The translations under genes were made by a program, and so were the position numbers. 64,000 nt of DNA from Sipunculus nudus (lineage: Eukaryota > Annelida > Sipuncula > Golfingiida > Sipunculidae). Positions 4,521 to 62,665 of the stretch are shown in pieces; position 1 is the first letter of the stretch, and every line of letters starts with the position of its first letter. The stretch spans positions 12,638,839 to 12,702,838 of the forward strand of contig CM049316.1 of the NCBI GenBank assembly GCA_026874595.1, in the 5' to 3' direction. The notes below the pieces were generated by a model. It saw only the letters and a program-made list of their open reading frames with translations. It did not search any database and had not been told where the DNA came from.

Positions 4521-7500
4521 TTTTTAGCAAACCTGTGAGCTTATGCGATGGTGCGGCATCGTGCGTCGTGCGTCATCTGTACATTAACCATAGCTATCTC
4601 TAAAATGGCAGGAGCTAGCATCACCAAATTTTTTGCAAATGATCAGTCATCCAAAAAACTTTATCAGATTTTGTTTATTTTTTTTTCTAACTGCATTTTC
4701 TTAGATTTTATAGGAAAAAAGCTAAAAAAGCTTTAAAAATCTTCTTCTCCGAACCTGTCCAGCCAAATTGTCAATATTTCACAGAAATGATCCCTGGAAC
4801 AATCTTTTTCAAGTTTGTTTGAATGGTTCCAGTTCGATGATTTTTGGCAGAGTTACAGATGGTTGAACTTTGTTAACCTTGCAAAAAAGCATATTAAAAT
4901 TTTAATCTCAGGAGCGGCTGGAGCAATCATCACCAAATTTTATGCCAATGTTGGTCACATACGTCATATCTGAAATTGAGGTATTGGTGGCGCCACCTGC
5001 ATCAGCCTTTCTTGTACGGGGTCATCAGTGCCTGTAACACACTGAGGGCTACAAAAAACTTCTTCTCTGAAACCATATGGCCAAAATTATTAATATCGCA
5101 CAGAAATGATCCTAGAGTAGTGCTTTCTGAAGTTTGTTCAAATGGTCTTAGTTCAGTGACTTTTGGCTGAGTTATGGGAAGCTGAATTTAGTCATATGCT
5201 GTAACAGCCCATTTTAGCCAAGTGGCTACAAAGATCTTCTCCTCAAAAACCACTGGGCCAAATTCTTAAATCTCACACATTAATTATCCTTAGATGTTGA
5301 TAATTCAAGTTTGTTCAAATGGTATTGGTTCAGTGATTTTTGGCTGAGTTATGGGAAGCTGAGCTTAGCCAGTTTGCTGTATCTTCCTATATGAGTTATA
5401 AACCTGCGAAACGTTTTTGACTGATGCCACTGACGCAAGTTTGTTAAATATTTTACAAGAATAATCCCTACAATAATTCTTATAATAATTGTTATTAAAG
5501 GCTCCACATGAATGATTTTTGGCTGAATTATGGAAATTGAATTGAGTCATTTTACCATATATGTTAGCTGTGTTATGCTGTTATATCTAGCCTGGCACCA
5601 TTTAATCAGCATCTATTACATCATGCCACTAGACATTTAGATTTCAGATTATCTTTGGTTAATATTGACAAGAAAGTTTTTTTTAAAAGCTTTTAAAAAA
5701 TTTAGATTTATGATTTAAGTTATTCATCATACCAGGCAATGTTACAATCATGGATATTCAGCTCTCTGTGGCTATATAAAGACAACTGTACGTGGATTAT
5801 AAATTATTGGTATCCCTACTCAACTTAATTCAAGAATTTGCCATCAATGAGATATATCTTTATTTTAATTTGCATTCAGTATGCATCCGTAATAATTTTA
5901 CATATATTCCTGATTTCTTTTTTATAAAAAATCAGCTGAAAAGCATTTTATATTGGGAAAATAAATTTCAAAGATATTTCAAGTAGGGACCACTTTTGTG
6001 TACAGATGGCAGCACTGGGTTTACCATTGGCAGATTGCCAGTGCCTTGATGTTGGCCATTAGCCAAGATGATGTCAGCTCTATAAATAGTGCCACAGTGC
6101 CAGGATTGGAAGAAGTGCAGCCAGGTAGAGGTCAAGAGTTCACTCAGTTGAGTAGCTGCATTCTATTTATAGCTTTGGCAGACTGCTCACTTCATCATAT
6201 TTGGCACCAAAGTTCAGCCTGAATCTATTTATAGCTTTGGCAGACTGCCAACTGTGTCAGATTATGCAGTAGGTCAAGAGTTCACTCAGTGCAGCCAGGT
6301 ACAGGTCAAAAGTTCACTCAGTCTAGCCAGGTGCAGGTCAAGAGTTCACTCAGTGCAGTAGCTTGAGGCAGCAATTTGTCACAGGTCACTCGGGGGCAAC
6401 TGCCTTACTCACCTAAGCCTTGTCAGCCCAGTGCATCAAACTCTGGGGAAGTTGTCTATGACCTGTCTATGCATCTTTGATGGTATTCTTATTTACAAGA
6501 CAAGTGGTGCCACCTACATTGACTTTTGCAGTGTATGCGCCTGCTTATTTCTACAGAGGAATTTGATATATCAGCCTTAAGTTGGGCATGTTTATACATA
6601 TCGGGTAGCTTTATAGTGTACAAGACTGGTGGCGCCACCTACAATAATTTTTGCACAGTGTATGTCCCTGCTTATTTCACAGGAGGGGTTTGACATATCA
6701 GTCTGACATTGGGCATATTTATATATCTCTTCGTTGTATATAAGACTGGTGGTGCCAGCTACAATCATTGTATCCGCCAAAACAGAGTTTTGCGGATACT
6801 ATGTTTTCAGTCAGACGCTGACGCTGCCGCCATTGCTGCAACTCCACAATAACCACTGGGCAGAATTTTTTAAAATTCCGAATTATGATTGGTAACATGT
6901 GAACTGCTGCGCTCTCATTTTTGGTTGACCTCTGACCTTTCCTTTCTGCCCAGCGTCCATTTGTGAGTCTGTTTCCACACATAAACCCACATATCTCGTG
7001 AACCGTTTGACTGATCAGGCTAAAAATTTTGCACAAATGTAGCCCTTGGAAAGCTTTATAACATACACTAAAAATGGTGGCGCCACCTGCAACCATTTTT
7101 GCACAGGGTCCATCTGTTCATCTGCTTTGGGATAAAATCACTCATATCTCAGAAGTGGTTTGACTTTTCCGCCTGAAATTTTGCAGGTTTATACATCCTG
7201 GACAGCTTTTTGGATTTTATGACAGGTGGCGCCACCTACATTCACATTTACTCTGCAGACATCTAAGCTCATATCTCGGGAACCGTTTGACCGATTGAGC
7301 CAAAATTTTGCATGTGTATAGATCTCACATAGCTCTTCATCATAGGCAAAACTGGTGGCGCCACCTACAACCATTTTTGCACAGCGTCCATCTGTTCATC
7401 TCCTTTGGGATAAAATCACTCATATCTCAGCAGTGGATTGACTTTTCCACCTGAAATTTTGCAGGTTTATACATCCTGGACAGCTTACTCAATTTTATGA

Positions 7501-8116
7501 CAGGTGGAGCCACCTACATTCATGTTTACTCTGCAGACATCCAAGCTCATATCTCAGGAACCGTTTGACTGATTGAGCCAAAATTTTGCATGTGTATAGA
7601 TCTCACATAGCTCTTCATCATAGGCAAAACTGGTGGCACCACCTGCAACCGTTTTTGCACAGCGTCCATCTGTTCATCTACTTTGGGATAAAATCACTCA
7701 TATCTCAGCAGTGGTTTGACTTTTCCACCTGAAATTTTGCAGGTTTATACATCCTGGACAATTTTCTCAATTTTATGACAGGTGGCACCACCTACATTCA
7801 CATTTACGCTGCAGACATCCATGCTAATATGCAACACACCTCACTCTAATTCCCCTTGCCACTTAATCCATGCCTCACTTCACCCGTCACACTCTGATTT
7901 CTGCAGATACACATAGTCGCTTGTCGACTACCCATATTCTAGTTTTAAAATGTCCTAGTCTGAAACTTGCAGGTCCGAAACATCCATTTTGCCGAAATCA
8001 TAATTACTAAGGTAGATATGCAGGACTTAAGAGGATCAATATTAAATTTAAAAAATAAACCTCCATTCATACTCCCAATCTTTGCACAGGTTCGCATTAG
8101 GCCTGTAGGCCTTGTT
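4521..8116 (+). mobile_element. Family-B HINE-like element with nested family A
   Basis: Starts TTTTTAGCAAACCTGTGAGC and ends CACAGGTTCGCATT, AGGCCTGTAGGCCT, TGTTA. The 5' motif GCGAACCTGTG and the 3' CACAGGTTCGC are exact reverse complements in the consensus, followed by a hairpin. That arrangement is typical of Helentron-associated non-autonomous elements. The interior holds tandem units with the GGTGGCGCCACCT palindrome and a gttcactcagtgcagccag array (5998-6400). A family-A element sits at 6770-7942. Several small ORFs are repeat translations. Confidence 0.75.
6770..7942 (+). mobile_element. Family-A HINE-like element, copy 1
   Basis: Begins with a hairpin GTATCCGCCAAAAC/aga/GTTTTGCGGATAC and ends with the stem-loop tagtcgcttgtcgacta and …TATTCTAG before T. 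The core has ~280-bp tandem units, each of two diverged ~140-bp halves, with the AGGTGGCGCCACCT palindrome and 'catatctcgggaaccgtttg'. The 3' subterminal motif is decayed here (ctgcagatac). Confidence 0.75.
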
Positions 8117-13995: not shown

Positions 13996-15182
13996 TGTAT
14001 CCGCCAAAACGAAGTTTTGCGGATACTATGTTTTTGACCGGGTTCCGCCGCCGCCGCCGCGTTCGTTTCCGGAGAACTCCTCTGAGACTACTGGACAGAT
14101 TTTTCCGAAACTTACACAAATTATCGGGTCACATGTGAACTGGTGCCTAACCAAGTGACCTTGACCTCTGACCTTTCGTCTCTGCCCAGCGTCCGTTTGT
14201 GCGTCTGTTTACACACATAAACCCATATATCTCGGGAACCGTTTGACCGATCCGGAAAATTTTTTTACACAAATGTAGCCCTGGGATAGCTTTATAACAT
14301 ACACAACAAAAGGTGGCGCCACCTGCAACCATGTTTGCACAGTGTCCATCTGTTCATCTGCCTGGGGTTAAAATCACTCATATCTCTGCAGTGGTTTGAC
14401 TAATTCACCTAAAATTTGGCATGCATATACATCCTAGATAGCTTTCTCAATTTTATGACAGGTGGCGCCACCTACATTCACGTTAACGCTCCACACATAA
14501 ACCCATATATCTCGGGAACCGTTTGACCGATCCGGAAAAAATTTTTACACAAATGTAGCCCTGGGATAGCTTTATAACATACACAACAAAAGATGGCGCC
14601 ACCTGCAACCATGTTTGCACAGTGTCCATTTGTTCATCTGCCTGGGGTTAAAATCACTCATATCTCTGCAATGGTTTGACTAATTCACCTAAAATTCGGT
14701 ATGCGTATACATCCTAGATAGCTTCCTTGATTTTATGACAGGTGGCGCCACCTACATTCATGTTAACGCTGCAGACATCCAAGCTCATATCTCGGGAACC
14801 GTTTGACCGATCCGGAAAAAAAATTTACACAAATGTAGCCCTGGGATAGCTTTATAACATACACAACAAAAGGTGGCGCCACCTGCAACCATGTTTGCAC
14901 AGCGTCCATCTGTTTGTCTGCTGTGGGATAAAATCACCCATATCTCTGCAGTGGTTTGACTTTTCCACTTGAAATTTTGCATGTGTATTTATCTTGGATA
15001 GTTTCTCGTTCAAATAACAGGTGGCGCCACCTACAATCATGTTTATGTGGCAGAGATCCAATACTAATATTTTACATATGTAACTCTATATCCCCTTGCC
15101 ACTCAATCCATGCCTCACTTCACCCGTCCTTCTCTGATTTTGGCGGATACACGTAGTCGCTTGTCGACTACCCGTATTCTAG
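13996..15182 (+). mobile_element. Family-A HINE-like element, copy 2
   Basis: 5' hairpin GTATCCGCCAAAACGAAGTT… at 13997; 3' GGCGGATAC at about 15142, the stem-loop gtagtcgcttgtcgactac, and terminal CTAG at 15182 followed by TT. Palindrome-bearing units recur at 14312, 14592 and 14872, an exact 280-bp period. Insertion is at CAT|TG…CTAG|TT, with no clear target duplication. Confidence 0.8.
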
Positions 15183-48476: not shown

Positions 48477-50055
48477 TGTATCCGCCAAAACAGAGTTTTG
48501 CGGATACTATGTTTTCAGCTGGCCGCCGCCGCCGCCGCGTAGGTGTCCGGAGAACTCCTCCGTAACCGCTGGGCGGAATTTTCCGAAACCCGGGATTATG
48601 TTCGGGTCACATGTGAACTGCTGCGCCCCGATTTTGTTTTGACCTCTGACCTTTCCTTTGCGCTCTGCGTCCGTTTGTGCGTCTGTTTCCACACATAAAC
48701 CCACATATCTCGGGAACCGTTTGACCGATCAGGAAAATTTTTTTGCACAAATGTAGCCCTCGGAGAGCTTTATAACATACACCAGAAATGGTGGCGCCAC
48801 CTGCAACCATGTTTGCACAGTGTCCATCTGTTCGTCTGCCTTGGGTTAAAATCACTCATATCTCTGCAGTGACTTGACTAATTCACCTGAAATTGGGCAT
48901 GCGTAAACATCCTGGATAGCTTTACTGATTTTATGACAGGTGGCGCCACCTACATTCACGTTTACGCTGCAGACATCCAAGCTCATATCTCGGGAACCGT
49001 TTGACCGATCAGGAAAATTCTTTTGCACAAATGTAGCCCTTGGAGAGCTTTATAACATACACCAAAAATGGTGGCGCCACCTGCAACCATGTTTGCACAG
49101 TGTCCATCTGTTCGTCTGCCTTGGGTTAAAATCACTCATATCTCTGCAGTGACGTGACTAATTCACCTGAAATTGGGCATGCGTATACATCCTGGATAGC
49201 TTTTCTGATTTTATGACAGGGGGCGCCACCTACATTCACGTTTACGCTGCAGACATCAAAAGTCATATCTCGGGAACCGTTTGATCGATCAGGAAAATTC
49301 TTTTGCACAAATGTAGCCCTTGGAGAGCTTTATAACATACACCAAAAATGGTGGCGCTACCTGCAACCATGTTTGCACAGTGTCCATCTGTTTGTCTGCC
49401 TTGGGTTAAAATCACTCATATCTCTGCAGTGACTTGACTAATTCACCTGAAATTTGGCATGCGTATACATCCTGGATAGCTTTTCTGATTTTATGACACG
49501 TGGTGCCACGTACATTCACGTTTACGCTGCAGACATCCAAGCTCATATCTCAGGAACTGTTTGAACGATCAGGAAAATTTTTTTGCACAAATGTAGCCCT
49601 TGGAGAGCTTTATAACATACACCGAAAATGGTGGCACCACCTGCAACCATGTTTGCACAGTGTCCATCTGTTTGTCTGCCTTGGGTTAAAATCACTCATA
49701 TTTCTGCAGTGGTTTGACTAATTCACCTGATATTCGGCATGCTTATACATCCTGGATAGCTTTTCTGATTTTATGACAGGTGGCGCCACCTACAATCAAG
49801 TGTACGCTGCAGACATCCAAGCTCATATCTAGGGAACCGTTTGACCGATTGGGCCAAAATTTTGCATGTGTATAAATCTCACATAGCTCTTTATCATACG
49901 CAAAACTGGTGGCGCCACCTGCAGCCATGTTTGCATAGCTCCCATCTGTTTGTCTGCCATGGGATAAAATATCCATGCTAATATGCAACACTTCACCCGT
50001 TCCACTCTGATTTAGGCGGATACAAGTAGTCGCTTGTCGACTACCTGTATTCTAG
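48477..50055 (+). mobile_element. Family-A HINE-like element, copy 3 (longest)
   Basis: The 5' hairpin starts at 48478; the 3' end has GGCGGATAC (50015-50023), stem-loop 50026-50044 and CTAG ending at 50055. The core repeat starts at 48791, 49071, 49351 and 49631, exactly 280 bp apart. It has more core repeats than copies 1 and 2 but the same ends, so core copy number varies within the family. ORFs inside (e.g. minus 48855-48607) are repeat translations. Confidence 0.82.
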
Positions 50056-56220: not shown

Positions 56221-59200
56221 GTGAGTTCTTATACTTCTCATTATGTTAGATTCTCAACTGACTAAACTGTTGAAGAAATATTTTAAAAATTGTTCTCTGT
56301 AAAATTAAGAAATATGATGCTCTGAGTACAAGCATTAAATTGTATGAAATGTGAGGTTTTGTAATGCTGTTTACATGTCCCACAGTTTCTGATTAAAGCT
56401 TTACCTTAATTAAAGCAGTCATCACAATTAAATAAAATGAGATATACACACACAAAAATCAAAAGACTGTGAATATGTGGTTAATTTATTATTGCTGTAA
56501 ACATTGCCTTGTGTCCTGATTAGACAATACACACATATAGGATATATTCAGCAGTACATGTGCTGCTATCTGGCAGGCATATATACAATCAGAATCTGTT
56601 GCTGTATGTGCCTTCTGAGATAAGGTGTAATGTCACATGATTGTTTCAGCTGACAGCAGACCCAGACCAGAATGTGAGAAGTGGCTCAGACTTACTGGAC
56701 AGACTAATGAAGGTGGGTAAAGCCAATGTTCAATGTATGCGTATGCAGTACAAAAGTGTATGCAGCTAGGAAATGCACACATATTATGTATTCTCTTGGA
56801 GCACATGCGCTTGAATTTCTATTAGTGTAGATTTTGGTTAAATTTGTTACTTTTCTGGGTCATATTACTTATCCGACCTTTTCCAAGCATTTTCGCACTA
56901 TATATGGTCCATATCTTTATTATTTACTTAATATTTGAGACAGGCAGGCAAGAAGCCACCGTCTTTAGGTCTAGCAGCCATGGCATAGCAATTGAGGATG
57001 TGCTTTCTGATTGGTTCATATGTCTATTACTGGAATCTTCAGATGGTGATACGGCTGACGTAACAATGGTTCAGCCAGTCACGCATGTACTTCAAATTGA
57101 GCCCGAAACCGATGTGCCATGGATGTCAGGCTTATAAAGGGGGCCTGCATGCCTATCTCAAATATTAAGTAAATAATAAACAGATGAACCCAACAGTGCA
57201 AAAAACGCTAGGAAAATGTCAGATAAGTAATAGTTATAAGGAAATGATCCAGAAAAGAAATATATTTAACAGAAATCTACACCAATAGAAATTCAAGCGC
57301 CTTTTCTTGGAGTGATTTCACACGTGCGTATGCAGTACATATGTATGTATACATATGCAGCACATTTTGATGGCTCACAATTGCAATTGTAAACACATAC
57401 GCATGGTAATGGATAAGGAAAGTCCACACTTTGACGTCATGTGATAGGGTATTCCTCTGGTAAATGACTTCTCTACACCTGCAGCTGTATTGTATAGACC
57501 CAATTTTGCTACATATGTTTTGCATATGCATACATGTTAATGGAATCACAGGCATCAGTTTTCTAACTACTTTACACATATGTACTATGTATGGGTTGAT
57601 AATTTGATATATATACTTATATATATATATTTCTAGGCTATATTTTGCTGGCTAGTTTATTACTTTTTGGAAATAGTTTTGCATAAATTTAATAGTTATT
57701 TTACACTCCCTGTTGTGCATTACATTAAATGGCCACTACACTTTATGTAAAAGAAACTCAGACACCATCCGAGGGAAGTGGATGTGTGAATGAAAAGCAA
57801 GGTTAATGTAGAAACGTGATATTGGACTATTTGTAGGACATTGTGACAGAGAGTGCATCCTTTGATCTTGTGGCATTTATACCCATGCTGAGAGAGAGGA
57901 TTTACACCAGAAACCCATTTGCCCGCCAATTCCTGGTGTCCTGGGTAGGTATACCTCTATAAACACATGTTTTACTGTGTTTGCATTTATTTTTTTGCTC
58001 AACTGTAAGATCATGAATAATTTGAAATTTTTATAGCTATTGACCAAGCATACATGTCTACCCATCTTATACGTAGTCAACATAGGTGCACATGTGATAT
58101 CAAAGGTATACGTTTTAGAAACCAGCAGTTAAATGATCTGAGAGAAAAGTAACATTTTTTATGCAGTACAGACTGTATTGCATAAAGGTATAATCACTTC
58201 CACTTTCATTTACAAATATTAATATACAGTTGCAACTCTAAATATACCAAAAATAAAACTGTACCTCTTTTTTTCATATTCTAAAATTTTATAAATTACT
58301 TTCATAGGCCACTTCAGCATACCACTTAGACATATGTGTCCCTATTATTTTGGTAAGACATAGTTGTCTTTTTATGTTACATGTTTTAGACAAATCACAA
58401 ATGACTAATAATTGACTGAAAATAGAGAACTAAGTAAACACTGAGTCAAACATGACTTGTACAGAAAATTGCACTAAGGTAGCCATCCATCCTTTTTCAA
58501 CAAAATTGCTACACACACCCAGTAATCTTAACATATGTGAGGAATAAACACAAAAGGAAACATGTTGATATACAATGCAAATTCCATCTGTATAGTGACC
58601 GCCTTCACTTCCTGTGCCTCACATGGCTATCAATCACAAAACATAACATGATGGGAGACATGCTGGCATGCAGTGAGAAAATCAACAAAAATACAAGGGG
58701 ATTTATCAATATATGCTGAATTATTGAATCCTTTTTGCATAGAGTATGTTTTGTTGGCAAATAAATGAACATATTTTTTCTGGTTTATTCTCAAATATAC
58801 AAAACTTAAAAGCAGTGAGGCATTCTAAAAACATTTGAAAATGTTTTTATTCCCATTGAACTGTCAATGCAGGTTTCAACATGGCTCATGGGGCTTCTCT
58901 GACTTTCAAGTACACCCTCTTACATGGTAGGGGTAAAACAGCTGCTACTATTAACAATCCCCTCACGCAAAAGTTTATTGTCTGGGTCATTCTCATTGAG
59001 ATACTCTATATATTTGTAACTGTTGTGTTTTTCAGGTCAGTGTTCTTGACCATGTCCCTGACATTGACATGCTGGTGTTTCTGCCTGAGATATTGGATGG
59101 ACTCTTTCATATTCTTGGTGACTCAAGCCCAGAGATAAGGAAAATGTTAGTCCATATAATAAAAGCACGTTGCTTTAATGAGTAAAATTATAGAGAGGTC

Positions 59201-62200
59201 AAAAGCAGCTATTTAGTTTTATTCTGTTCAAGATATGGAAATGTGAATGTGACCACAGCTATTATACAGTATTAACATTATTCCTGCTTGGACTAAACTG
59301 AGTTTACCATCGATGGTTAATTATGATTTTGTTTATTAACCACATACACAGGTTTTTTTCTGCATAGTTATAAATATACAATGATTAAGATGGAAAATTT
59401 TGAAATATAGAATTAATTACCGGTACTTTATTTCATTTGGTAATGATACATTAAGTGAGAAGCTGATTTTGAATTGTACAGTGATGTGTGTTGCTGGTAT
59501 CAGAAATAAGAACTAAATACTGTATGTGTGTTAGAGAGAGGCCAGAGGTAGCAGGTGTTTGGGAGGTGGTGTGGATATGTGTGTGTGAGTGAGGGGAGTC
59601 ATGGCTGTTCATAGATTGGGGTGTTGGTTGTGGGTTGGAAGGTCTGGAAAAAGTTATTAAATGCAGGAAATATGTCAGTGATGAGCAAAGATCAAGAAAA
59701 GACAGTGACACATGTTAACCAGGTCAACATTTATTATAACATACATTGTTTCTCCTGATTCTAATATCTATAACGGCTTACAGGTGTGAAGCAACCCTTG
59801 GAGAGTTCCTTAGGAATATCTGTAAAACAGAACGCACTCTGAACTTCCCCACCATGGCCAACATCCTGATCCTGCACAGCCAATCAACAGGTAAATACAG
59901 GTGATACAGGTGTCTACTCTGATCCTGCACAGCCAATCAACAGGTAAATACAAGTGAGACAGGTGTGTATTCTGATCCTGAACAGCCAATCAACAAGTAA
60001 ATACAGGTGATACAGGTGTGTATTCTGATCATGCACAGCCAATAATCAGGTAAATACAGGTGATACAGGTGTGTATTCTGATCTTGCACAGCCAATCAAC
60101 AAGTAAATACAGGTGATACAGGTGTGTATTCTGATCATGCACAGCCAATAATCAGGTAAATACAGGTGATACAGGTGTGTATTCTGATCCTGAACAGCCA
60201 ATCAACAAGTAAATACAGGTGATACAGGTGTGTATTCTGATCATGCACAGCCAATAATCAGGTAAATACAGGTGATACTGATGTGTATTCTGATCCTGCA
60301 CAGCGAATCAGCAGGTAAATACAGATGATACAGGTGTGTATTCTGATCCTGAACAGCCAATCAACAAGTAAATACAGGTGATACAGGTGTGTATTCTGAT
60401 CATGCACAGCCAATAATCAGGTAAATACAGGTGATACTGATGTGTATTCTGATCCTGCACAGCCAATCATCAGGTAAATACAGGTGTGTATTCTGATCCT
60501 GCACAGCCAAACAACAGGTAAATACAGGTGTAATCCTTATCCTACACAGTTAACAGGTAAATACATGGGGTTTTTTTTTCGGGTGTATATTCTCAACTTT
60601 CCCACCATGGCCAACATCCTAATCCTACTTGTTATACAGCTGACATAACTTATAGAACTGAGTACATGTAGGTAATATAGCTGTAAAGCTGACTGAAGTT
60701 GTTTAAAGACATGTCTTTGGTTATAGGGATTATAATGGTGTATGTTTGATTATACAAATTATAGAAGTGTGCAAAAGGTAGTGCAACTGATTATACAGGT
60801 TATCTACAGCTGATTATTCAGTGTAAGTCTATTAAAAACACATAAGGGTATATATTAACTTGCTTCAAAAATGCTGTAAGAAAAGGAAGTAGCTTATGTA
60901 CTCTGACTTATAAATATAGGTTATATAGTATAATCCCCTGTTAACCTTTCAGATTCTCTGATCCAACTGACTGCCATCTCCTGGCTTAGGGAGCTGATGT
61001 ACTCTAGCTTACTATACAGGTTATAGCTCACCTCCTGTTAACCTTTCAGATGCTTTGATACAGCTGACTGCCATCTCCTGGCTAAAGGGGTCAGATTCTC
61101 AGATCCAGCTGACTGCCATCTCCTGGCTTAAGGAGCTGATGTACTCTAGCTTACCATACAGATTATAACTCGGCTCCTGTTAACATTTCAGATGCTCTGA
61201 TCCAGCTGACTGCCATCTCCTGGCTTATGGAGCTGATGTACTCTAGCTTACTATACAGGTTATAGCTCACCTCCTGTTAACCTTTCAGATGCTTTGATAC
61301 AGCTGACTGCAATCTCCTGGCTAAAGGGGTCAGATTCTCAGATCCAGCTGACTGCCATCTCCTGGCTTAAGGAGCTGATGTACTCTGGCTTACCATACAG
61401 ATTATAACTCGGCTCCTGTTAACCTTTCAGATGCTCTGATCCAGCTGACTGCCATCTCCTGGCTTAAGGAGCTGATGTACTCTAGCTTACTATATACAGG
61501 TTCTAACTCACCTACTTTCAACCTTTCAGATGTTCTGATCCAGCTGACCACCATCTCCTGGCTTAAGGAGCTTATGTGCTCTAGCTTACTATACAGGTTA
61601 TAACTCACCGCCTGTTAACCTTTCAGATGCTCTGATCCAGCTGACTGCCATCTCCTCGCTAAAGGAGCTGATGTACTCTATCTTATTATACAGGTTATAA
61701 CTCACCTCCTGTTAACCTTTCAGATGCTCTGATCCAGCTGACTGCCATCTCCTGGCTTAAGGAGCTGATCCTGCTGTCAGGCCGGACCATGATCCCCTAC
61801 ACCTCTGGTATCCTGACCGCTGTACATCCTTGCCTGGCCTATGAGAACCCAAAGAGGAAAAGTATCCTTTTAATAAATGCCAAAATCATTTGCTGCATTG
61901 TTTTTATGCAACCATTATATTTGAAGGGGTTTTCTGTTTTTTATTCCTAAAATTAACTTAGACTTGTGAAAGTTTTGTAATCATACAGTTTCTTTGCCAA
62001 ACAGCAAATAATCTGTTAAAATTATATTGAAAACCCCAGGAAAATATGGCAGAGATTGAGTAAGGCATGTTTAGAAACCTTGAACTGATAATTTATACTG
62101 TATTTATCAAAATGGCAGACAGTCTTTTCAGTATATATATATTAAATGAGTTGATCTTTTCTATTGTGTTCCATAATATCTGTGCTTTATTGTGTTGCAT

Positions 62201-62665
62201 TTTCAATTGTAAAATAATATTTTAAGCAATGAAATACATACTTGGACAGTTTTGTAATTGTAGATTCCCTTCAAAAAGATAAACAGTCTGTTTAAACTTA
62301 CTTTAAAGACGGGATTTGCAGATACAGTAAAACCTTGCCTGACAATCACCTCAGTTTAGTGACTACCTCAAAATGACAACCACTTTTTTACATTCCCAAT
62401 TCTATTGTGCTCTTTATTTCAGACCTTGCTCATACAACTACTGTAATTGCAAATTTTCAACAAAACACTGTCATATTATGTGTGGATACAGTTACTACAC
62501 AGTGTCAGAGTTAAATGTGTTATCTTTAACCGCTGTAACCCTCAGACACAAGGGAGGCTGCTAAGGCTGTTAACAGCAGTCTGATGAAGCTGGTTAGCAG
62601 CAAGGATGATGAAGATTCTGCTACTGATGAGCACAGCATTAGCAGCAACAACACAGAAAAACCTG
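56053..62665 (+). CDS. VAC14: VAC14 homologue, partial gene model (7 exons)
   Basis: Join of 56053-56220, 56650-56712, 57837-57944, 59036-59145, 59784-59890, 61724-61861 and 62546-62665, 814 nt, about 271 residues. All junctions are GT-AG and the reading frame carries through every one. The product aligns by eye with the N-terminal HEAT-repeat half of animal VAC14, for example [48 protein letters not shown] and SGILTAV. VAC14 scaffolds the lipid kinase PIKfyve and the phosphatase FIG4 on endolysosomal membranes and so controls PI(3,5)P2 levels; this is family knowledge. Exons for the first ~90 residues and for the conserved C-terminal half are not seen. The left part could lie upstream behind a long intron and the rest beyond the right edge. 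No promoter, start codon or stop codon can be assigned. Only the cluster of small exons between repeats marks the gene. Confidence 0.95.
56650..56712 (+). CDS. VAC14: VAC14 exon B (21 codons)
   Basis: A 63-bp exon between ttgtttcag and gtgggt, phase 0 at both ends. It encodes [21 protein letters not shown], which continues the HEAT repeat after exon A and matches the family's conserved ADPDPNVKSGSELLDRLLK region almost residue for residue. It is too short for ORF detection and was found from family similarity and splice sites. Confidence 0.93.
56802..57304. mobile_element. Fold-back MITE with ~150-bp TIRs in VAC14 intron B-C
   Basis: The left arm (GCGCTTGAATTTCTATT… to about 56950) is matched in inverted orientation by the right arm ending at 57300 (…AATAGAAATTCAAGCGC). 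The arms pair over about 150 bp, including the TTTATTATTTACTTAATATT stretch. Flanks share TCTTGGAG at 56794-56801 and 57305-57312, an 8-bp target-site duplication of the type made by hAT and Merlin transposases. The centre has an open frame of 97 codons with no recognisable domain. Non-autonomous. Confidence 0.8.
57837..57944 (+). CDS. VAC14: VAC14 exon C (36 codons)
   Basis: Acceptor atttgtag, donor gtaggt at 57945, phase 0. It encodes [16 protein letters not shown], then [20 protein letters not shown]. The DIVTES, F-P-LRERIY and ARQF blocks are typical VAC14 HEAT-repeat sequence. It joins in frame to exon B on the left and exon D on the right. Confidence 0.94.
59036..59145 (+). CDS. VAC14: VAC14 exon D (36 codons + 2 nt)
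   Basis: Acceptor gtttttcag, donor gttagt at 59146. It encodes [20 protein letters not shown] followed by [16 protein letters not shown] and the first two bases (AT) of a Met codon completed by the G of exon E. The [13 protein letters not shown] and EIRKMCE blocks are VAC14 hallmarks. The donor could be misread one base later; placing it after AT is what preserves the MCE junction. Confidence 0.93.
59784..59890 (+). CDS. VAC14: VAC14 exon E (ends inside a splice-donor minisatellite)
   Basis: Begins with the G that completes Met, then [18 protein letters not shown] and [17 protein letters not shown], and ends with the first base of an Asp codon before donor gtaaat at 59891. MANILILH matches the family's MANILVIHCQ segment. 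Its last ~23 bases and the donor form the first unit of a ~53-bp tandem array that runs on into the intron. Only this first donor keeps the protein open: reading through meets TGA at 59902-59904. Confidence 0.92.
59868..60545 (+). repeat. Minisatellite of exon E 3' end plus 5' splice site (~53 bp x ~14)
   Basis: Unit: ctgatcctgcacagccaat, then caacag|gtaaatac, then gtgatacaggtgtgtatt. The first unit is the true coding end and donor of VAC14 exon E; about 13 more follow in the intron. Units alternate between two variants (…caacaagtaaa and …aatcaggtaaa), so a ~106-bp higher-order dimer has been amplified. Every unit retains a GT donor. Unit length is not a multiple of three. Confidence 0.92.
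60940..61800 (+). repeat. Minisatellite of 3' splice site plus exon F start (8 copies)
   Basis: Acceptor-like cctttcag (one atttcag) followed by atgctctgatccagctgac recurs, with exon-like starts at 60953, 61050, 61192, 61289, 61431, 61530, 61627 and the real 61724. Spacings are 97, 142, 97, 142, 99, 97 and 97 bp. The 142-bp intervals contain an extra partial exon-like copy beginning cagattctcagatccag. The 97+142 pair forms a ~239-bp higher-order unit. Decoys share about 40 coding bases with the exon, then run into tgatgtactctagcttac and a stop. Confidence 0.92.
61724..61861 (+). CDS. VAC14: VAC14 exon F (46 codons; last copy of an exon-start minisatellite)
   Basis: Acceptor acctttcag ends at 61723. 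The exon encodes [20 protein letters not shown], then [20 protein letters not shown] and ENPKRK, and ends with the first base of the next codon. SGILTAV-PCLAY is a strongly conserved VAC14 block. Seven upstream decoy copies carry the acceptor and the first ~40 exon bases, but they diverge to stops after the ELM codons. Only this last copy continues into conserved protein. Its donor is GTATCCTTT, a minor-spliceosome type site. Confidence 0.93.
61862..62545 (+). promoter_or_regulatory. Probable U12-type intron of VAC14
   Basis: The donor at 61862-61870 is GTATCCTTT, identical to the minor-spliceosome 5' splice-site consensus. Near the 3' end, ATCTTTAAC at 62522-62530 resembles the U12 branch-site consensus TTCCTTRAY (7 of 9). 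Its branch A lies about 16 nt before the terminal AG, within the tight window such introns use. The intron is in phase 1, a common U12 phase. The other VAC14 introns here have ordinary U2-type donors. Confidence 0.75.
62546..62665 (+). CDS. VAC14: VAC14 exon G (40 codons)
   Basis: Acceptor ccctcag ends at 62545, donor gtaaga at 62666. It encodes [19 protein letters not shown] followed by the acidic, Ser-rich [20 protein letters not shown]. The first half matches the family's KEVANVCNQSLMKLV helix. The second half corresponds to the variable, acidic linker that separates N- and C-terminal HEAT blocks in VAC14. It is read in phase 1 at both ends. No following exon is recognised before the window ends. 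Confidence 0.9.

Follow-up and report, generated by a model that had tools for sequence, protein, structure and literature searches.

The window analysed in this study, a 64,000-nucleotide stretch of Sipunculus nudus contig CM049316.1, carries part of a VAC14 gene; seven exons within it join into one open protein, the translation of which matches the Pfam family PF12755 (Vac14 Fab1-binding) at 2.2e-35. On the downstream side, the gene continues with exons that reach 80.1 kb or more in window-extended coordinates. No sequence was found for one short exon between exons G and H, and a tblastn search for the first ~83 residues gave no match in the window or in the 40 kb downstream of it; the initial exons may have diverged or may be located upstream of the window. 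In the VAC14 tree, the window protein groups with Ridgeia (an annelid) and one further protein inside the lophotrochozoans (support 97/84), and a support of 100/97 was obtained for a grouping with a further protein. The lancelet VAC14 is 66% identical to the window protein over the compared part. A single gene says little about phylum, but this placement argues against a lancelet. The features around the intron between exons E and F, all on the forward strand, are as follows:

59036..59145, forward strand: VAC14 exon D, with GT/AG edges and an in-frame splice, placed by ortholog alignment
59784..59890, forward strand: VAC14 exon E (107 nt), whose final 25 bp seeded the left array
59891..59896, forward strand: true (outermost) donor GTAAAT, the sole donor with an open frame
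59891..60577, forward strand: left array, 13 extra exon E ends with donor, in a 53-bp unit with a partly 106-bp higher-order pattern
~60595..60633, forward strand: longer decayed exon E piece (10 residues) that closes the left array, by direct reading
60953..61723, forward strand: right array, nine extra exon F starts, in a 97-bp unit that with 45-bp steps gives a 239-bp higher-order unit
61095..61139 and 61334-61378, forward strand: decoy exon F copies without a pyrimidine tract, 17-18 mismatches to the true site
61698..61723, forward strand: true (outermost) 3' splice site, the sole acceptor with an open frame
61724..61861, forward strand: VAC14 exon F (138 nt), whose initial ~45 bp seeded the right array
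62546..62665, forward strand: VAC14 exon G

The E-F intron (59891-61723) is 1,833 bp long, and the introns on either side of it, D-E and F-G, are 638 and 684 bp. The two arrays account for 687 and 771 bp of it, lengths that depend on array ends set by the analysts, and together fill ~80% of the intron, in agreement with a first-pass annotation of this DNA that had them make up most of a 1.8-kb intron. In the left array, a total of 14 GTAAATAC donors was counted, the true one at 59891 and 13 extra, as the same annotation had estimated; the regular 53-bp unit consists of 25 bp of the exon E end (rather than the ~23 given there) and 28 bp of the intron start. The donor 9-mer of the true site, CAG/GTAAAT, recurs in 9 of the 13 extra donors, and the other four read CAA/GTAAAT, with A in place of G at the last exon position. 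Several copies in the middle of the array are identical and those at its inner end have decayed; the final three are shortened, and the last (60557) retains little of the exon part. The exon E piece beyond them is the trace of an older and longer duplication.

The right array is built on the other edge of the intron, from a unit that joins the final ~50 bp of the intron to the initial ~45 bp of exon F. Its 239-bp block is repeated with few changes, and its first copy is strongly diverged. The first-pass annotation counted seven right-hand copies, whereas the extra exon F starts number nine. Seven of the nine have a full 3' splice site, with one to seven mismatches to the true site over 28 nt (a single base in three of the nine extra acceptors). 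The remaining two, which lack the pyrimidine tract, arose by a shorter 45-bp step that omits it. With the true sites included, the intron thus offers 14 GT donors and eight full acceptors, the numbers proposed in the first-pass annotation. The best array copies match their seeds at 33/33 and 40/40 positions, and neither value was reached in any of 200 shuffled introns.

When the 1.43-Gb assembly was searched with the region and with part of each array, nothing turned up outside the VAC14 E-F locus; the counts are lower bounds, and very common words were skipped. The absence of matches outside the intron argues against a dispersed satellite, the outcome that would have made the arrays ordinary repeats, and this explanation was rejected. 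An assembly artefact is the least plausible of the explanations weighed here and has next to no probability. Tandem arrays are prone to error and the assembly seems to include bacterial contigs, but the copies diverge in a structured pattern, both arrays lie directly against a coding edge, and they are carried on a contig of 79 Mb. Bacterial contigs are probably contained in the assembly. Of the matches to the COX1 family, 10 of 11 are on small contigs (C60-C89 and C123); no mitochondrial contig was recognised among them, and the C123 candidate is, by its look, presumably a bacterial cbb3-type oxidase. Elsewhere in the window, tandem arrays with a 278-280-bp unit and a GGTGGCGCCACC core lie at 7070-7830, 14212-15043 and 48704-49970; Rfam gave no match above threshold in the window.

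All 140 donor-acceptor pairs of the E-F intron were translated over the stretch that begins with exon D and ends with exon G. The frame stays open only when the outermost donor is joined to the outermost acceptor, as had been claimed from the sequence alone; each of the other 139 pairs meets a stop 161-1,561 nt ahead of the F/G junction. Direct reading confirmed that read-through at the true donor ends at TGA 59902. It also bore out the claim that the decoy exon F copies stop after a short peptide, here a TAA after 11 residues or a variant thereof, with the exception of the copy at 61431, which reads through the next copy before its stop.

The exon junction produced by the outermost pair aligns without gaps to 10 of 13 animal VAC14 orthologs, and the remaining three, those of zebrafish and two nemerteans, carry a short insert at most one residue from the junction. 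The length changes of the nemertean and zebrafish proteins fall at alignment columns 273-278, within a residue of the junction. This suggests that the splice sites at the junction shift in other animals too. These length changes also hint that the intron may be old, which weighs against its being a recent gain made by duplication of a coding segment together with a splice motif. A tandem-duplication origin of introns has been published (PMC2891723), but a gain of that kind needs the same repeat at both ends, and here, by direct reading, exon E is the source of the left unit and exon F that of the right; a recent gain is accordingly given a very low probability, only just above that of an artefact.

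The first-pass annotation knew of no described system of this form, a claim that does not hold, as the lancelet "mirages" show the same pattern (PMC3087553). Mirages are tandem repeats that run across exon-intron boundaries, reported in lancelets from Adh3, the globins BflGb6 and BflGb9 and troponin C, among other genes; PGBD5 contains similar repeats (PMC3087553, PMC3902484). Their units range from 10 to 160 bp, and haplotypes differ in copy number (PMC3087553). As in lancelets, the VAC14 tandem units span an exon-intron edge and adjoin the authentic edge, here at both intron ends; the copies bear splice signals (GT in 13 of 13 donors, AG in 9 of 9 acceptors, a pyrimidine tract in 7 of 9); and the arrays show minisatellite turnover, being homogenised inside and diverged at the cluster edge. 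Unlike the lancelet cases, VAC14 has arrays at both edges of one intron, its copy numbers exceed the 6 and 3 of BflGb6, and its host is not a lancelet. The VAC14 E-F arrays are therefore a large, two-ended mirage, a member of a named pattern. No report of mirages so named outside lancelets, or of arrays at both ends of an intron, was found in the mainly open literature searched.

Other known systems share part of this arrangement. An interferon-induced transcript contains, by the title of its report, a minisatellite with multiple splice donors, and in multiplying donors this minisatellite resembles the left array. We take the transcript to be that of the human 6-16 gene, whose minisatellite, unlike the VAC14 arrays, is said to have short units and donors only, with several of the donors in use. 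Introns derived from tandem arrays were reportedly described by Zhuo in 2007. In human duplicated genes, internal tandem repeats at exon-intron boundaries can change splicing, according to the part of PMC2812944 available. Both of these concern new or variable introns, whereas in VAC14 an existing intron seems to have been enlarged at both ends. Pairs of competing splice sites, engineered or natural, also come close, as in the work of Reed and Maniatis cited in PMC9225289 and in the identical-donor minigenes described there. In VAC14, as in such minigenes, identical sites compete by position only, but the locus is a natural one and offers up to 14 donors and eight full acceptors instead of a pair.

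The search for mirages was extended to other exons. A total of 28 VAC14 exon edges were mapped and tested for copies, and the donor of exon J (L002, 9510-9742, on C11, 9.5 kb past the window end) is the third edge to bear an array: six decayed ~35-bp copies extend to 9960, the best and second best of which match at 24/33 and 22/33, values that none of 1,000 shuffled introns reached. Weak matches at the GH donor (15/200 shuffles), the CD acceptor (18/200) and the NO donor (25/200) were rejected as being at chance level for 28 tests. The complete sample of 49 exons comprised 15 VAC14 exons, 19 kinase blocks and 15 WD40 blocks; the kinase loci (8 of 16 places where two or more domain hits fall inside 10 kb) and the WD40 loci (4 of 12 places where three or more fall inside 5 kb) were picked blind to repeats. 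In a uniform automatic test, same-strand local copies were detected at 8 of the 49 exons, with at least 12 nt of exon overlap in six, namely VAC14 exons E, F and J and one exon each in L051, L056 and L063. Inspection of the other two, in L064 and L053, added a seventh in L064, where an edge of a RACK1-like exon is copied and the donor lies beyond the domain match. The mirages outside VAC14 are as follows:

L051, 4803-5000, reverse strand: acceptor edge in a gene for a NEK-family kinase; three extra acceptors are clear
L056, 1839-2050: donor of a kinase, with an 89-bp unit
L063, 4374-4646, reverse strand: donor of a WD40 protein, with three extra donors
L064, 2112-2154: donor of a RACK1-like gene, with one extra donor 42 bp downstream

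The best solved relatives of the L051 kinase are NEK1, NEK2 and NEK7, and the single-stretch RACK1 matches of L064, near 1e-41, rank under some multi-repeat WD40 proteins. In L053 (1352-1641), intronic repeats copy the 3' splice site of an exon of a kinase, presumably Aurora-like; these repeats contain no exon sequence and were not counted. Arrays near sampled exons in L050 and L057 were judged by inspection not to derive from exons. In total, mirages were found at 7 of 49 exons, inspection included; because VAC14 entered the sample through its arrays, a separate count was made without it, giving four mirage exons among 34, in four of the 12 loci. No mirage was found in 30 further kinase loci, which are mostly single large exons and of which about two, on small contigs, may be bacterial. 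Although the sample is small, these counts suggest that mirages are no rarity in the S. nudus genome. In the same loci, local direct copies were detected by the same automatic test in 44 of 196 random noncoding segments compared with 6 of 49 exons (Fisher p 0.16; 0.24 with the seventh exon), so exons are not enriched for local copies. Given this high noncoding background, general tandem duplication explains the mirages, and an exon-specific machinery is unnecessary.

Combined, these results make it probable that the VAC14 arrangement is a two-ended mirage that arose by local duplication, was expanded by exchange, and has kept its outermost sites through exon definition and decay. By this account, local tandem duplications would by chance have spanned the exon E/intron and intron/exon F edges, and unequal exchange would have expanded them into two minisatellites; a homogenised middle with decayed copies at the inner end is what unequal exchange is expected to leave. 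Such edge duplications would survive as every extra copy sits between the two authentic sites, inside the intron, and the outermost donor and acceptor would still connect intact coding sequence; edge-spanning duplications can therefore persist. Exon definition would then pair the far edge of each exon with the nearest site across that exon, which is the outermost one, and any stray use of an inner site would lead to a premature stop and removal by decay.

With exons E and F of 107 and 138 nt and flanking introns of 638, 1,833 and 684 bp, the outermost donor is expected to win. In human minigenes spliced by exon definition, the upstream of two identical strong donors is used exclusively, and human data favour upstream donors where the sites are near-equal and the flanking introns long (PMC9225289). 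The effect on acceptors is weaker: the main exon-definition class shows no more than a reduction of the usual upstream preference, and the behaviour of a hybrid class fits exon definition (PMC9225289). By analogy with these systems, exon definition is the most likely selector of the outermost sites, a role well supported elsewhere for donors and weakly for acceptors.

Splicing might instead be loose, with inner sites often used and the products cleaned up by nested re-splicing or nonsense-mediated decay; an inner-inner splice would leave the outer pair for another round, and outer-inner and inner-outer splices would be dead ends. The near-identity of the competing sites noted above, in the donor 9-mer of 9 of 13 extra donors and in the three acceptors one base off, speaks for such use. 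In a count model of 14 x 8 sites with a geometric bias between neighbouring sites, productive mRNA in the case of no position bias amounts to 0.9% in one round and rises to 23% with inner-inner re-splicing; it reaches ~81-82% if each inner site is ~10x weaker than the next outer one. An output of 23% seems improbable for a required gene, however, and the lancelet globin and Adh3 data, which include RT-PCR, suggest undisturbed regular splicing (PMC3087553), so loose splicing is considered unlikely. Less likely still is that the arrays are a selected regulatory device through which VAC14 output is tuned by unproductive splicing. The premature stop that 139 of 140 pairs carry, never fewer than 161 nt ahead of the next junction, would suit such a device, but chance stops would act alike and unrelated genes also bear mirages. 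Array-array RNA pairing, by which decoys could be looped out, was rejected as not clearly above shuffles: 5 of 60 shuffles were as strong, and at the unit level 184 of 200 were at least as strong.

Beyond the probable origin by local duplication and exchange, we advance a wider proposal only tentatively, as one rather less probable than not. In this lineage outside the lancelets, exon-edge duplication may be common enough for a sizeable fraction of genes to carry mirages of various ages, with introns lengthening from either end as they take in duplicates of their splice edges and the outermost pair being kept by exon definition with help from nested re-splicing of inner products. If this is true, the genome would be a natural library of splice-site competition experiments. 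The mirages found here offer natural cases of near-identical sites that compete by position alone, so that what governs splice choice, be it exon or intron definition, re-splicing or decay, can be read from ordinary RNA data; they also show a simple route to longer introns. Overall, the two-ended VAC14 mirage and the five more mirage exons suggest that splice-edge duplication is no peculiarity of lancelets.
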